Shown: piece after piece, positions 1-7,190 of the stretch
How the letters are laid out: every line of letters starts with the position of its first letter
Position numbering within the stretch: position 1 is the stretch's first letter
Source: an uncultured SAR86 cluster bacterium
GTDB taxonomy: Bacteria; Pseudomonadota; Gammaproteobacteria; Magnimaribacterales; AG-339-G14
Direction: 5' to 3'
Assembly (NCBI GenBank): GCA_902522825.1
Contig: CABYXE010000009.1
Span: 1 to 33,336 of the forward strand
Length of the DNA stretch: 33,336 nt
Position numbers and translations under genes: made by a program
Notes under the pieces: model-generated
What the model was told of the DNA's origin: nothing
The model's input: only the letters and a program-made list of their open reading frames with translations
Databases searched by the model: none

Positions 1-749
1 ATGGCGATAAGCATATCGGTGGCTGGAAAAATAGATATATGCATGGAAAGGGAAAAATCATTTATGAAAATGGAGATTCTTTTGAAGGCCTTTTCGAGGT
101 AGGCGAATATGTAGACGGTGAATATAACTGGATTAATGGCGACAAGTATATCGGTAGTTGGAAAAATGGACTTTTACATGGAAAGGGAAAATACTTTTAT
201 GCAAATAAGGAAGTTCTTGAGGGCTATTTTCAAAATGGATTCGCAGAAGGGCTAGGAAAACTTACATATCAAGATAAAAACTATATTGTAGTAAATTTTA
301 AAAAAAATTTAAGGAATGGTTTTGGTAAAACTTATTTCTCAAATGGTGGAAGATTTGAAATTAATTACTCCAATGATAATCCTTATGGAATGGGAAAATA
401 TTTTTATGCAGATGGAGATATTTTTATTGGAAATTATAAGGAAATAGGCGACGGATCAAAAAGAAATGGGGAAGGTAACTTTTATTATAGAGATGGCAAA
501 CAATTTATAGCAGAATGGAAAAACGGAGAAATATGGCAAAGAACTGTTTTGTTCTCTGAAGCAGGAGAGATTTTGGATGATAGTTGGAATCAACTTAAAC
601 ACAAAGAATATGTAGAAAAATTAAATAAAAATTCAGTTAATTCGCAGTTTGAAGAAATAGAGTTAAGAACTACAGAATTATCTAGGACAAGCATAACTAT
701 GAAAACCAAAAGAAAGCCCAAGGCTAAGAGGGCTAAAATTACAAAATAA
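1..749 (+). CDS. MORN-repeat protein, 5' end cut by window edge
   Basis: The frame is open from base 3, upstream of the first ATG at 39, and the upstream codons already spell a MORN unit (GDKHIGGWKNRYMHGKGK), so the gene starts outside the window. About eight MORN-type units of roughly 20-23 residues follow, with the usual G-(D/N)-x-Y/F-x-G-x-(W/F)-x-N-G-x-x-x-G-x-G pattern; later copies are degenerate. The last 60 or so residues are not MORN: they are polar and end in a Lys/Arg-rich tail (KTKRKPKAKRAK). MORN repeats form elongated beta-hairpin stacks that act in membrane or protein binding; no catalytic domain is visible in the part seen. It converges with the protease gene with only 4 bases between the stop codons. 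The substrate or partner cannot be told from sequence. Confidence 0.85.
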   Translation, partial: GDKHIGGWKNRYMHGKGKIIYENGDSFEGLFEVGEYVDGEYNWINGDKYIGSWKNGLLHGKGKYFYANKEVLEGYFQNGFAEGLGKLTYQDKNYIVVNFKKNLRNGFGKTYFSNGGRFEINYSNDNPYGMGKYFYADGDIFIGNYKEIGDGSKRNGEGNFYYRDGKQFIAEWKNGEIWQRTVLFSEAGEILDDSWNQLKHKEYVEKLNKNSVNSQFEEIELRTTELSRTSITMKTKRKPKAKRAKITK

Positions 750-753
750 ATAC

Positions 754-1755
754 TTATTTTAAGAGTAAATCTAATTCTTTTTGATTTTCAGGATAATTTT
801 CATTGAACCAATTATAAAAACCAATAAATTTTTTTTTATCTAATTTTGGGAGAAATCCTTTGATGAGTTCATCTTCAAACAAACTTCTTGAGGTGTCTGT
901 AAGAGATCTCTCTAATAAGGTATCTGCACTGATCGCATAGTAAAATCTCCCAACATCAATATCCATCAAGCTCTCTTCTGAATGGCTATGAAAATAACAA
1001 TCCCAAGAAAAATAACAATTTCCACTGCTATCATTTTTTGATTTAGTGCTTGATGCTTCTGTTAGACCGTTAATTCCAACTAATTTTCCTTCTTTATTGA
1101 CTAATGGCCCGCCACTCATGCCAGACTTCACAATCGCGTCATGAGCAATGTCATACCAAGCAGTCGAATTTAGAGATTTTTCATCATAGATAAAACTATT
1201 TATTACCCCTGAGGTCATAAAAATGTTTTTATAAACATATTCCTTTGGATTACCCACCGCATCTGGATAACCACTAGCAAAAATTTGGTCCAATTCCCAA
1301 GAAACAAAATCTTCGTCCAATAAAGATGCTAATTCTAGTGGAACGAACTCAATCTGCACTTCTTCAAACTCTTTTTGGTCTATTTCAATACTAATAATGG
1401 CAAGATCATCTTCTTCAAAATAAATATAATAGTTAACTAAATATTCATTATCTAAATCTGGATGTGTTGCATAGATAGAAATATCGTCCTCATATTCCAA
1501 ATTTTCACAACCAGTATTGGATAAATTCAAACCGCAGGTTTCTTTTAAGATAACATGTGCATTGGTTACAAAATAATACTTATTTCCATTTTTATTGATT
1601 AATGATGCGCTTCCCCAGCCAATTTCATTGCTTTCAGAGTCTGATAAAAGTATCTGAAAAGTCGAATAGTACAACTTTTTTGCTATTTCTTTGTTCTCAA
1701 GTCCAAAAGCAGAAAAGCTAAAAAAAAGAAAAAATATTAAAAAAATTATTCTCAT
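754..1755 (-). CDS. Exported trypsin-like serine protease
   Basis: 333 residues. The N-terminus is a clear signal peptide (MRII, about 14 hydrophobic residues, then SAFG-LE), so the protein is exported to the periplasm or beyond. The chymotrypsin-fold triad is readable: His67 in TNAHVIL, Asp117 in EEDDLAII, Ser214 in SGMSGGPLVN, followed by the typical GKLVGING strand. No PDZ domain follows, which separates it from DegP/DegS; residues from about 235 to the end look like a family-specific helical tail. Four cysteines (C74, C83 and a pair near 247-253) could form disulfides. An AAGG sequence lies about 12 bases before the ATG. It is divergent from the small repeat-protein gene and ECF sigma operon, so a role in processing envelope proteins or in signalling is possible, but that is inference. 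Confidence 0.85.
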   Translation of the reverse strand: MRIIFLIFFLFFSFSAFGLENKEIAKKLYYSTFQILLSDSESNEIGWGSASLINKNGNKYYFVTNAHVILKETCGLNLSNTGCENLEYEDDISIYATHPDLDNEYLVNYYIYFEEDDLAIISIEIDQKEFEEVQIEFVPLELASLLDEDFVSWELDQIFASGYPDAVGNPKEYVYKNIFMTSGVINSFIYDEKSLNSTAWYDIAHDAIVKSGMSGGPLVNKEGKLVGINGLTEASSTKSKNDSSGNCYFSWDCYFHSHSEESLMDIDVGRFYYAISADTLLERSLTDTSRSLFEDELIKGFLPKLDKKKFIGFYNWFNENYPENQKELDLLLK

Positions 1756-1786
1756 AAGATTATTTAACCTTATTTAAAAATATTTC

Positions 1787-1811
1787 GTAACATTTTTAAA
1801 AACTTCTCGTT
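1787..1811 (+). promoter_or_regulatory. Possible ECF-type promoter for the repeat protein
   Basis: GTAAC at 1787-1791 and TCGTT at 1807-1811 are separated by 15 bases, resembling the AAC...CGT arrangement of many ECF sigma promoters. It lies 56 bases before the ATG of the small repeat protein and about 370 bases before an ECF sigma gene. The region is very AT-rich and a sigma70-like TATTAT follows at 1815-1820, so this is only a candidate. Confidence 0.25.
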
Positions 1812-1824
1812 AAATATTATAGGT

Positions 1825-1845
1825 GAAGCATAAAGCTTCTTTTTT
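1825..1845 (+). terminator. Short GC-containing hairpin followed by T run
   Basis: GAAGC (1825-1829), loop ATAAA, GCTTC (1835-1839), then six T residues. It has the form of a weak intrinsic terminator read on the plus strand, yet no plus-strand gene ends just upstream: the nearest is the MORN gene at 749. It sits in the leader of the repeat-protein gene, 23 bases before its ATG, so it may instead be a leader hairpin that stabilises or attenuates that mRNA. Confidence 0.35.
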
Positions 1846-1867
1846 AAACTAATAAATTTTTAAAACT

Positions 1868-2113
1868 ATGAAAAATATTTTTATTATCCTCACAGGCATA
1901 TTTCTGTCTTTTCAAGCAAACTCTAGCTCTTATAGCTCCTATCAGATAGGAGAAAGTACTTTTTATAATGGCACTATAAATGGTCAAAACTTTAATGGCT
2001 CTTCGTATCAAATAGGAAACTCCACTTTCTACAATGGTTCAGTAGGAAATGATTCGTTTAATGGATCTTCTTATTCAATAGGAAATAGTACTTTTTACAA
2101 TTTTTCAGAGTAA
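1868..2113 (+). CDS. Small secreted protein of 22-residue repeats
   Basis: 81 residues. Residues 1-18 form a signal peptide (MKNIFIILTGIFLSFQA), and the rest is built of three units: 23-44, 45-66 and a shortened 67-81. The shared core is SSY(Q/S)IG(N/E)STFYN, and the first two units end in FNG. The mature part is rich in Ser, Asn, Gly and aromatic residues and has no charge apart from one Glu in unit 1, one Asp in unit 2 and the last residue. This suggests a short beta-rich, possibly surface-exposed or self-associating peptide. I do not know a named function; small exported proteins with similar aromatic/Gly repeats occur in other Gammaproteobacteria. The gene is 64 bases upstream of and co-directional with an ECF sigma gene. 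No clear Shine-Dalgarno is visible. Confidence 0.7.
   Translation: MKNIFIILTGIFLSFQANSSSYSSYQIGESTFYNGTINGQNFNGSSYQIGNSTFYNGSVGNDSFNGSSYSIGNSTFYNFSE
1934..2110 (+). repeat. In-frame 66-base tandem repeat, 2.7 copies
   Basis: Units at 1934-1999, 2000-2065 and 2066-2110 encode the 22-residue repeats of the secreted protein. The DNA copies differ at many third positions (for example agctcc, tcttcg and tcttct for the two leading serines), while the peptide core is nearly unchanged. That pattern indicates old duplication with selection on the protein rather than recent slippage. Confidence 0.8.
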
Positions 2114-2177
2114 TTTTTATAGTCATTATCAATATATTTTGCTTTTTAAAAATTATTTTTTTTGTTTTAATTAATTC

Positions 2178-2726
2178 ATGGATAGTGACAGTAAAAAGAG
2201 TTATTCAAACTGGGATAATTTAATTAAAGAAAATTTTGAAAATCCCAAGTTCCAAAGTCTTATTTCTTACTACGCATGGAAGTACGCAAGAATTTGGGGA
2301 TATTATGAAGACAGGCAAGAAGCGGCTAATGATTTAAGACAGGACGCCTTTCTGAAAGCTTGGGAAAAGCGTGATTCTTTTGACGGAAAATACTTCTTTT
2401 CTTGGGTGCGTCAAATTATGGAGAATAGAGCAAAAGATCTATCAGATCAGAAAAAGATTAAGCCTCAAGATCAGAAAGGGAAAATGCCTGATTTATCTGG
2501 AGAAAAAGCATTTGATACTCACGAGTATGTTGATTTGGTAGCAAGAGCAGATCAATGCTTGGAAAAACTTAAAACTGAAAATCAAGAAATAATTTTAAGA
2601 AGAAGGTGTGGATATTCTTATGAAGAAATTAAAGATATTTTGGATCAAAATTTTTCAGTTGCAAATCTAAGAAAAAAACACTGCGAAGCTAAATTAAGTT
2701 TTAAAGGATGTATGGATGAGGTTTAA
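2178..2726 (+). CDS. ECF-type RNA polymerase sigma factor
   Basis: 182 residues, the usual size for an extracytoplasmic-function sigma factor. Region 2 is visible at about residues 25-90, including DLRQDAFLKAWEKRDSFDG and FSWVRQIMENRAKD. A linker with Pro/Gly follows, and region 4 occupies about 115-178 with the helix-turn-helix YSYEEIKDILDQNFSVANLRKK. There is no region 1.1 or 3, as expected for ECF factors. The gene is followed after 6 bases by a gene for a single-pass membrane anti-sigma factor, the standard arrangement, and preceded by the small secreted repeat protein. Inference: it is held at the membrane and released by an envelope signal. The target regulon is unknown, and the subgroup cannot be assigned without a search. 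Confidence 0.87.
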   Translation: MDSDSKKSYSNWDNLIKENFENPKFQSLISYYAWKYARIWGYYEDRQEAANDLRQDAFLKAWEKRDSFDGKYFFSWVRQIMENRAKDLSDQKKIKPQDQKGKMPDLSGEKAFDTHEYVDLVARADQCLEKLKTENQEIILRRRCGYSYEEIKDILDQNFSVANLRKKHCEAKLSFKGCMDEV

Positions 2727-2732
2727 AATTTT

Positions 2733-3425
2733 ATGAACGAAAAAGATAAAGAATTAATTTTTGCATTTCATGAAAATGAATTGAATTCCAAAGATGATGA
2801 GTACGTAAAAAATCTCTTGAGCAGCAATAATGACGCAAAAATTTTTTTAGAAAAATTATCTTCAGCAGATGAAACTTTGGATGCTTACTTTTCTTATATA
2901 GAAAAGCCTGAAGTTAGCGAAAGTTATTCGCAATTTATTAAAAAAAAGATTGAGGCTATTAACTTTTTAGATAAAACATCCAAGACTGAGAAATATAATT
3001 TCATATCTCAAATAGTTAGTTTCTTTCAATACAAACCTGTTTTGCAATATGGATTATCTTTTGCCCTGCTTCTATCTTTAACGACAAACTTTTATTTCTT
3101 TAATCAAGATAACGAAGAAATTTCTGGATTTAATAACTTGGTTTTTGAATCAACAATTGAAAAACCTTTTAAAGCAGCCAGCGCAAGAAATAGCATTAAT
3201 CAAATCGAAAAAGAGGTAGAAAAAATTATTCCGCAAATGATTAATGAGAAAAATTTATTAGGCAAATTAATAATTGATAACCAAATCATAGATATTAAGC
3301 TTAGCTCTAAATCTTTTTCAGCAATGGATTTAGAGTGTTTTTCGGGAAACTATTTTTTCAATTCAAACAAGAAAACTTTTAATTTTTGCCAAAGCTCTGA
3401 TAGTCAGTCAATTATATTCAATTGA
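2733..3425 (+). CDS. Putative transmembrane anti-sigma factor
   Basis: 230 residues. The N-terminal 55 residues look like an anti-sigma domain (ELIFAFHENELNSKDDEYVKNLLSSN, then a second helix). It lacks the HxxxCxxC zinc motif: there are no cysteines in this half, so it is a non-zinc type. A single membrane helix lies at about 103-123 (VLQYGLSFALLLSLTTNFYFF). The C-terminal 107 residues would be periplasmic and hold the only two cysteines, C202 and C219, near the end, which could form a disulfide. Spacing of 6 bases after the sigma gene implies co-translation and a cognate pair. It meets tatC with only 1 base between the stop codons. The family assignment rests on context and topology more than on a strong motif. 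Confidence 0.75.
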   Translation: MNEKDKELIFAFHENELNSKDDEYVKNLLSSNNDAKIFLEKLSSADETLDAYFSYIEKPEVSESYSQFIKKKIEAINFLDKTSKTEKYNFISQIVSFFQYKPVLQYGLSFALLLSLTTNFYFFNQDNEEISGFNNLVFESTIEKPFKAASARNSINQIEKEVEKIIPQMINEKNLLGKLIIDNQIIDIKLSSKSFSAMDLECFSGNYFFNSNKKTFNFCQSSDSQSIIFN

Positions 3426-3426
3426 A

Positions 3427-4137
3427 TTAACTTTTTATTAACTTTGCTCCCAATAATCCAAACTCAAATAAAATCCAAGTTGGAATAGCTAATAAAGTTT
3501 GTGAAATTACATCTGGTGGAGTGAGAAGCATTCCAAACACAAAACAACCTATGACCACATAAGGCCTTGCACTAGAAAGTGTCTCCACTGAAGTAATTCC
3601 ACTTTTAACTGATGCAAAAATTACGATGGGTATTTGAAAAGCTAAACCAAAGGCGACTAAAAGTTTGATTACAAAATTTAAATAACTAGAAATATCTGTC
3701 ATTACCGCAATTCCTTTGGGAGCAGCATTGATAAAGAAAGAAAAAATTAAAGGAAAGACTATATAAAAAGCAAAAAAAGTACCTAGGTAAAATAAAAGGG
3801 TGCTCAGGCCAGTTAAGCCAATTGTATAAACTTTTTCTGATTTAAAAAGACCCGGAGATGCAAATCTCCAAAGTTCAAACATTAAAAAGGGCATAGCAAC
3901 AAAGATCGCCATATAAAAGGTTAATTTCAAAGGAGTCAGGAAAGGAGAGGTTACCTCAGTCGCTATCATGGAAGAGTTATCAGGCAGGAATCTTACTAAT
4001 GGCTCGGAGATTGTTAAATAAATGGCATCTTGAAAAAAAGCTAAACAAATAAATATAAATATTGTTACTCCTAAAACTCTAAGAAGTAAGTTTCGAAGCA
4101 ATCCTAGCTGCTCTAACATAGAGCTTTTTTCACTCAT
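3427..4137 (-). CDS. tatC: Sec-independent protein translocase subunit TatC
   Basis: Six-helix inner-membrane core of the twin-arginine translocase, which binds the Tat signal peptide with TatB. I prefer the ATG at 4137 (236 residues) to the one at 4146, because GGA lies about 10 bases upstream of it and it overlaps the tatB stop by 8 bases (ATGAGTGA). Similarity to E. coli TatC runs end to end: SPFLTPLKLTF, FASPGLFKSEK (F92, E101), FGMLLTPPDVISQTLLAIP (D209). Two usually conserved positions differ: the N-terminal HLxELRxRL motif reads QLGLLRNLL, so His and Glu (E15 in E. coli) are replaced by Gln and Leu, and E170 of E. coli is Gln168. It is the last gene of the ubiE-ubiB-hisE-tatABC run. 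Confidence 0.95.
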   Translation of the reverse strand: MSEKSSMLEQLGLLRNLLLRVLGVTIFIFICLAFFQDAIYLTISEPLVRFLPDNSSMIATEVTSPFLTPLKLTFYMAIFVAMPFLMFELWRFASPGLFKSEKVYTIGLTGLSTLLFYLGTFFAFYIVFPLIFSFFINAAPKGIAVMTDISSYLNFVIKLLVAFGLAFQIPIVIFASVKSGITSVETLSSARPYVVIGCFVFGMLLTPPDVISQTLLAIPTWILFEFGLLGAKLIKS

Positions 4138-4324
4138 CTTTTTCATCTTCCTTTTTTTCGAAACCCTCGGAATAAAATTCCTGCTTAAGACGATTAATGC
4201 TGTTACGGCTTTTTACAAAAAGCTCTTCTAAAGTCGTAATAAATTGAGGGAGTCTCGTGGGCCCTAAAACCAATAAAGAAATTACGCAAATTATGAGAAG
4301 TTCAAAAAACCCAATGCCAAACAT
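4130..4324 (-). CDS. tatB: Sec-independent protein translocase subunit TatB
   Basis: 64 residues, far shorter than the E. coli protein (171). The N-terminal MFGIGFFELLIICVISLLVLGPTRLP is the TatB signature: a membrane helix with Glu8 and the G-P hinge, followed by an amphipathic helix (PQFITTLEELFVKSRNSINR) and a short charged tail ending EKKEDEKDE. The long C-terminal region of enterobacterial TatB is missing, which is usual in reduced genomes. TatB sits with TatC in the receptor complex. Its stop overlaps the tatC start, and it lies 12 bases after tatA. Confidence 0.92.
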   Translation of the reverse strand: MFGIGFFELLIICVISLLVLGPTRLPQFITTLEELFVKSRNSINRLKQEFYSEGFEKKEDEKDE

Positions 4325-6437: not shown

Positions 6438-7190
6438 TTAAGATTTATCTCCGTAATGAAGGGCTACGATACCGCCAGTCATATTTTGATATGCTGTGTT
6501 AACAAATCCAGCATCTTCCATCAGCTTTAAAAATTCTTTTTGATTAGGGTGCATTCGAATAGATTCCGCAAGATATTCATAACTGTCAGAGTCGCCTGCA
6601 ATCCACTGTCCTAAGTGAGGTAAAACATTAAATGAATAAAGATCATATAAATCTGACACTAGACTAGATTCAGGTTTAGAAAACTCTAAAACCAATAATC
6701 TTCCATTCGGTTTTAAACATCTATTAAATTCTTTTAAAGCCTTGTCTTTATTAGTAACGTTTCTGATACCAAAAGCAATTGAAATACAGTCAAAAGAGTT
6801 ATCAGGGAAAGGCAAATCTTCAGCATCAGCAACTAGAGTTTTAACATTTAATAAGCCGGAATCTAAAACTCGATCACGACCAATTTCTAACATTTTCTCA
6901 TTTATATCAGAGAGAAAAACTTTCCCTCTTTCTCCAACAATTTCAGAAAATAAAATTGCCAAATCTCCCGTGCCACCAGCGACGTCTAGAACGGTATCAT
7001 TTTTTTTGAGATTGCTCATTTGAACAGTAGCTTTTTTCCAAAGCCTATGAATACCGACAGACATTAGGTCGTTCATCAAATCATATTTATTTGCTACAGA
7101 ATCAAAAACTCCTTTCACCAAATCAGGTTTTTCATTAGGATTAACCTTTTTATAACCAAAATCGGCTTCTTTTTCAGTTTTGTCGTTCAT
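6438..7190 (-). CDS. ubiE: Ubiquinone/menaquinone methyltransferase UbiE
   Basis: 250 residues. A class I SAM-dependent methyltransferase that adds the C-methyl group to the benzoquinol ring in ubiquinone synthesis. Diagnostic parts are [17 protein letters not shown] (28-44), the SAM-binding loop [10 protein letters not shown] (68-77), [20 protein letters not shown] (the next SAM-contact region) and [13 protein letters not shown]. It is first in the minus-strand run that continues through ubiB, hisE and tatABC and is divergent from orn across a 37-base spacer. The run groups respiratory quinone synthesis with the Tat system that exports many respiratory cofactor proteins. Confidence 0.95.

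Follow-up and report, generated by a model that had tools for sequence, protein, structure and literature searches.

What does a second extracytoplasmic function (ECF) sigma factor do in a bacterium that keeps very few regulators? SAR86 bacteria are abundant in the ocean and have genomes of about 1.1 Mb with very few regulators. The stretch of DNA analysed here (the window, 33,336 nucleotides) is contig C9 of the SAR86 genome G000 (1.11 Mb, 33% GC). Near its left end, genes for an ECF sigma factor and an anti-sigma factor follow the gene of an 81-residue exported repeat protein, which is divergent from the gene of an exported trypsin-like protease. The sigma-E-type locus of G000 lies elsewhere (L064 on contig C1, with its own anti-sigma factor and a DegP-type protease), so the window holds a second, accessory ECF system. 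A preliminary description, made from the letters of the window, had taken these four genes for a possible envelope-signalling module. All four were found where it had placed them, and its account of a protease lacking PDZ, a repeat protein, an ECF sigma factor and a non-zinc anti-sigma factor with a cysteine pair held up. We argue that the locus is probably a mobile SAR86 cassette for envelope response that regulates its own expression, is activated by a protease and has the repeat protein as its output.

Two types of anti-sigma factor accompany this sigma family. The first is found in the window, in L060 (genome SCGC AAA168-P09), in L059 and in L073 (AG-464-M18); the sister type has a different C-terminus and is usually followed by a conserved gene of 225-232 amino acids. 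Loci of this kind occur in marine gammaproteobacterial genomes; the genomes compared are incomplete single-cell or metagenome assemblies and all comparisons between loci were made post hoc. The order repeat gene, sigma gene, anti-sigma gene recurs in L060 and L073, in two other SAR86 genomes.

The promoter carries most of the argument. In the window, L060 and L073 the repeat gene is preceded by the motif GTAACA-N15-CGT, in the window at a distance of 58 bp. Genome-wide counts were made with strict motifs only, and on that basis it occurs once in G000, at 1787-1810. The looser GTAAC-N16-CGT has three matches in G000 (scanned in full but for 1,011 bases at the end of one contig), the two others both inside genes, and the control GTAACA-N16-CGT has two, none at the cassette. 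Matches of GTAACA-N15-CGT fall at the sigma locus in 3/3 cases in the related SAR86 genome G047, 4/5 in G040 and 4/9 in G099 (binomial P for such clustering about 1e-6, 2e-8 and 2e-6, respectively). Spacing is equally constant: GTAAC-N(s)-CGT gives 12 matches at s = 16 in the first-type loci and none at the other spacings from 10 to 22, and in 21 sister loci, which took no part in motif discovery, 39 matches at s = 16 against 0-3 at other spacings, most of them preceding the sigma gene, or the conserved gene that follows, by no more than about 130 bp. In L059, which has no repeat gene, the promoter lies directly before the sigma gene, and several sister loci show the same arrangement; where a repeat gene is present, it therefore lies between this promoter and the sigma gene. 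From the single genomic site, the clustering at related loci and the constant spacing together, the repeat gene is almost certainly the first gene of the sigma factor's own operon and its main target. It is thus well supported by sequence that the sigma factor would drive its own operon, with the repeat protein as predicted first product. The same promoter site and the recurring gene order support two proposals of the preliminary description: that the genes form one module, and that the repeat gene is the main target of the sigma factor. The features of the locus are as follows.

1-749, forward strand: gene of an exported MORN-repeat protein (Pfam MORN, E 1.5e-17); its 5' part is on contig C14
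754-1755, reverse strand: gene of an exported trypsin-like serine protease of 333 amino acids without PDZ (Trypsin_2, E 2.9e-14), divergent from the repeat gene
1787-1810, forward strand: ECF sigma promoter GTAACATTTTTAAAAACTTCTCGT, of AAC-N16-CGT form; the sole GTAACA-N15-CGT in the 1.11-Mb genome
1825-1839, forward strand: small leader stem-loop GAAGC/GCTTC, from mRNA folding
1868-2113, forward strand: gene of the 81-residue exported protein with 22-residue repeats, first behind the sigma promoter
2108-2158, forward strand: A/U-rich hairpin followed by a U-run, a possible partial terminator between the repeat and sigma genes
2178-2726, forward strand: ECF sigma factor gene (TIGR02937, Sigma70_r2)
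2733-3425, forward strand: membrane anti-sigma factor gene, no zinc site, C202/C219, profile match to three related anti-sigma factors
3427-4146, reverse strand: tatC, the right flank of the insertion, which adjoins fba in the congener G002

The cassette appears to have entered between fba and tatC. In G002 these two genes are neighbours, 2 bp apart, with nothing between them. In G000, contig C14 has fba at its end, followed by the start of the exported MORN gene, with its signal peptide and first repeats (G000:C14:1-219); the first letters of contig C9 fall within a MORN gene, after which the contig continues through protease, repeat protein, sigma and anti-sigma genes to tatC. The assembly break falls inside the repeats of the MORN gene. 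We infer that C14 and C9 probably join there, and that the insertion in full would comprise five genes, for the MORN protein, protease, repeat protein, sigma factor and anti-sigma factor. The MORN gene, the promoter and the hairpins around the repeat gene were absent from the preliminary description. MORN and trypsin-like genes stand beside the repeat-sigma-anti-sigma trio in two loci, the window and L073. An integrase-like gene (L060 850-2097, Pfam matches below cut-off) precedes the repeat gene of L060 by about 4 kb and fits a mobile origin.

The sigma factor has the small size of an ECF (group IV) protein, 182 amino acids, and comprises regions 2 and 4 only. It matches TIGR02937 and Sigma70_r2 (E 3.6e-8) above cut-off and Sigma70_r4_2 (E 0.0012) below that model's own cut-off. 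Against a profile of the related-locus sigma factors built without the window, it is the best match (E 3e-17) among 7,459 open reading frames of G000. A five-sigma profile searched against 203 genomes of the order separates the family cleanly, with 24 matches at E <=1e-48 and the next at 1.5e-24. Seven relatives from the same genus gave no close copy of the window sigma factor, only matches of about 30% identity that behave like RpoE orthologues, and a pattern scan of the collection of genome contigs with it gave no match. SigW is among the nearest solved structures. Promoters of the Bacillus subtilis SigW type read TGAAAC-N16-CGTA; the cassette promoter shares their AAC-N16-CGT architecture but differs in its -35 element (GTAACA) and in a regulon of one site. 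An autoregulated operon behind a cognate bipartite promoter, as expected of an ECF system, can be read from the sequences of the window and related loci.

The sigma/anti-sigma pair is real by sequence homology. The anti-sigma factor matched no Pfam or NCBIfam family above cut-off. A profile of three related anti-sigma factors, made without the window, finds the window protein as its best match (E 3.4e-17) among the same 7,459 frames; the sister-type profile reaches only E 0.64, which places the window in the first type. Since its only cysteines are C202 and C219, the ligands of zinc anti-sigma factors are absent. A zinc-type class I assignment was rejected, as the HxxxCxxC ligands were not found and zf-HC2 matches in relatives are weak and sub-threshold. 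The cysteine pair, at the C-terminus, is invariant in all four loci. As a transmembrane class I anti-sigma factor the protein fits in gene order and helices; its sigma-binding domain was not identified by Pfam and its model is of low confidence. The single pass predicted earlier is clear as a transmembrane segment in two homologues, but the helix of the window protein falls below the hydropathy threshold used; the AlphaFold2 model has a helix at residues 106-123, also with low confidence, and a fold search with this low-confidence model gave no significant match. Beyond the order, a search of 369 gammaproteobacterial genomes found the first-type anti-sigma factor in the window only.

The repeat protein is built of three in-register copies of a 66-nucleotide (22-residue) repeat and matches no Pfam family above cut-off. 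AlphaFold2, run without an alignment, predicts a six-strand beta meander with a per-residue confidence (pLDDT) of 85-89 over most of the repeats, for which a fold search found no significant solved match. A curli-type amyloid was considered: 22-residue repeats and predicted beta strands agree with it, there is no curlin Pfam match, and export genes were not searched. Repeat genes hold the same position in the window, L060 and L073. The L060 and L073 proteins are clear homologues (58-71% identity), and the window protein shares with them its 22-residue period, position and promoter. The order-wide match of the window protein is circular, because its own row was in the profile; outside the three loci that search gave two marginal matches, which we do not trust. 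The searches run against plasmid and phage records gave no match for the repeat protein, the anti-sigma factor or M1 (a membrane protein described below), and none was found for the repeat protein in viral contigs. At the place equivalent to the hairpin at 2108-2158, which is weak (-6.1 kcal/mol, z -1.26), L060 and L073 have strong ones (z -5.3 and -6.9); the leader stem-loop is likewise no better than shuffles in the window (z -0.56) and stronger in L060 and L073.

The protease of the window has a signal peptide and the catalytic motifs TNAHV, EDDLAI and GMSGGP at residues 64, 115 and 212, the last containing the active-site serine, residue 214; the Pfam search gave no PDZ match. It is not of DegS type (trypsin plus PDZ), since PDZ is missing and TIGR02038 and PRK10898 score far below cut-off, nor of the HtrA/DegP family, whose Do-family models fit only the region around the active-site serine, again far below cut-off. 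An exported protease stands at 4/4 first-type loci and at 0/21 sister-type loci, where trypsin-like, caspase and CHAT types were looked for within 6 kb of the sigma gene. The window has the trypsin-like enzyme, L073 a trypsin-like and a MORN-caspase protein, L060 a CHAT protein and L059 two; in L060 the CHAT frame and the 3' end of the anti-sigma gene overlap, and in L073 an operon preceded by a sigma-type promoter has the genes of the membrane proteins M1 and M2 and, third and last, the trypsin-like gene. The data support an exported protease, as a class, as the partner of this type of anti-sigma factor. That the window protease itself cuts the anti-sigma factor is plausible.

We propose that GTAACA-N15-CGT is the promoter used by the ECF sigma factor, and that one operon, of repeat protein, sigma factor and anti-sigma factor, is transcribed from it; given the hairpin between the first two genes, its main product would be the repeat protein. 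The membrane anti-sigma factor, with one cysteine pair in its periplasmic domain, would hold the sigma factor at the membrane. On an envelope cue the periplasmic part may be cut by an exported protease, which is trypsin-like in the window and of caspase or CHAT type in relatives, and general intramembrane and cytoplasmic proteases would complete the breakdown and release the sigma factor. The small beta-rich repeat protein would then flood the envelope as a structural or protective output, not a signal. The protease step is drawn from genetic linkage and from the precedents of DegS-RseA and of Csx29, Csx30 and CASP-sigma. A search of G000 for a site-2 protease by regular-expression patterns gave no candidate; such patterns are crude and the result is not evidence of absence. 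A tentative extension, to which we give well under even chances, is that the sigma factor serves one output alone and that exported proteases of interchangeable kinds (trypsin-like, MORN-caspase, CHAT) activate the system by acting on the anti-sigma factor, a periplasmic counterpart of the CASP-sigma switch.

Several observations weigh against a protease-activated cassette with the repeat protein as output. The proteases of the four loci are of three kinds, the two trypsin-like ones (window and L073) are weakly similar, and that of L073 is closer to another protease of G000, on contig C4, than to the window's; the link between protease and sigma factor is therefore one of class, not of descent. 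The counts of 4/4 and 0/21 are themselves post hoc, as the gene set was gathered by looking beside sigma genes. No sigma-type promoter lies on the strand of the window protease, so nothing places this protease in the regulon. The sigma tree gives the window sigma factor no firm place. Finally, a repeat-protein profile made without the window scores the window protein at E 0.07-0.25, and 2.5% of period-keeping shuffles reach its score; its similarity to the L060 and L073 proteins is suggestive, and homology is not proven.

The strongest rival, which we regard as unlikely though deserving of serious weight, is that the sigma, anti-sigma and repeat genes are the real unit and that the insertion carries protease and MORN protein as effectors or passengers. 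In that case the protease would trim exported proteins and play no part in activation, its substrates perhaps including the repeat protein itself; activation would come through another site-1 protease or through the redox state of the cysteine pair. The missing promoter and divergent transcription of the window protease, the differing kinds of protease elsewhere and the cysteine pair invariant in all four anti-sigma factors speak for it; the distribution of exported proteases between the two types of locus, the overlap of the CHAT and anti-sigma genes in L060 and the place of the protease inside the insertion speak against it. Improbable in our view is a conflict or defence island whose periplasmic protease effectors are switched on by the ECF sigma factor, as in CASP-sigma. 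Proteases of the caspase, CHAT and trypsin-like kinds often serve as defence effectors, the insertion varies within the genus, an integrase-like gene lies near L060, PADLOC gives weak matches of the proteases to the trypsin-like and caspase parts of defence models, and a CHAT protease with a sigma inhibitor and a sigma factor is a precedent (PMC10028731). The proteases, however, bear signal peptides, the PADLOC matches are limited to the protease domain, no CRISPR, nuclease or sensor genes were recognised, and neither repeat protein nor anti-sigma factor has relatives in phage records. Least probable is the DegS-like scheme of the preliminary description, which makes the exported repeat peptide the signal and has the protease sense its C-terminus before cutting the anti-sigma factor: all partners are exported and genetically linked, and the repeat protein could still be an autoinducing or feedback signal, but the protease lacks PDZ, the acidic C-termini are not conserved (YNFSE in the window, once likened to the termini sensed by DegS; SSWIID and WWTID in relatives), the activating YxF was not found, and a gene transcribed by the sigma factor itself is a better fit to output than to input.

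Some further observations concern neighbouring genes. A second small trypsin-like protease of G000 (contig C4, around 70740) is the one nearer the L073 protease; tblastn with three CHAT proteins found none in G000. M1 (about 520 amino acids, coiled coil) and M2 (211-300 amino acids) are conserved unannotated membrane proteins beside three of the four sigma loci (L073 8034-10501, L059 94-2312, L060 10759-12960), behind the same promoter motif, and were not found in the window genome. In L059 a sigma-type promoter precedes a DUF4258 gene (6659-6972) that is divergent from the sigma gene. The sister family comprises about 20 SAR86 loci (L062 4622-6595, L067, L068, L075-L083 and others). The C-terminus of its anti-sigma factor looks LysM/FimV-like by eye, its 225-232-residue gene encodes a membrane protein, and GTAAC-N16-CGT precedes that gene and often the sigma gene too. 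Near a sister-type sigma locus, L083 (7541-7867) encodes a further short repeat protein that is exported, with repeats such as IGNTTFYSDGS.

The five-gene cassette is apparently an undescribed envelope-response system. With sigma-E/RseA/DegS of Escherichia coli it shares an ECF sigma factor, a membrane anti-sigma factor, an exported trypsin-like serine protease and an autoregulated operon. It differs in a protease without PDZ, in a tiny repeat protein as main product, in an anti-sigma factor that has a cysteine-pair domain and in which Pfam detects no RseA domain, and in that G000 has its own sigma-E-type locus (L064). In the CRISPR-linked system, the CHAT protease Csx29 cleaves Csx30 and relieves the inhibition of CASP-sigma (PMC10028731); the likeness lies in the linkage of an ECF sigma factor and its protein inhibitor with a protease gene, of CHAT type in relatives, whereas the SAR86 loci have exported proteases, a membrane anti-sigma factor and no CRISPR, and the window protease is trypsin-like. 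A type III-E CASP locus (Cas7-11, the TPR-CHAT protein Csx29, Csx30, CASP-sigma) is not present, as no CRISPR genes were recognised around the four loci. ECF54 sigma genes have CHAT protease, subtilase and carboxypeptidase neighbours and have been proposed to work without an anti-sigma factor (PMC8999054). They share with our loci the CHAT genes in the surroundings; the SAR86 cassette, in contrast, has a dedicated anti-sigma gene after the sigma gene.

Because SAR86 genomes are about 1.1 Mb and hold very few regulators, a sigma factor whose only strict site precedes one small exported protein is unusual. The definition of its promoter is good enough for tests in E. coli, with no need to culture SAR86. 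The protease-switched sigma factors shown so far involve a CHAT protease and belong to a CRISPR locus, and the recurring association of an ECF/anti-sigma pair with exported caspase, CHAT and trypsin-like proteases asks whether such switches operate in the envelope too.

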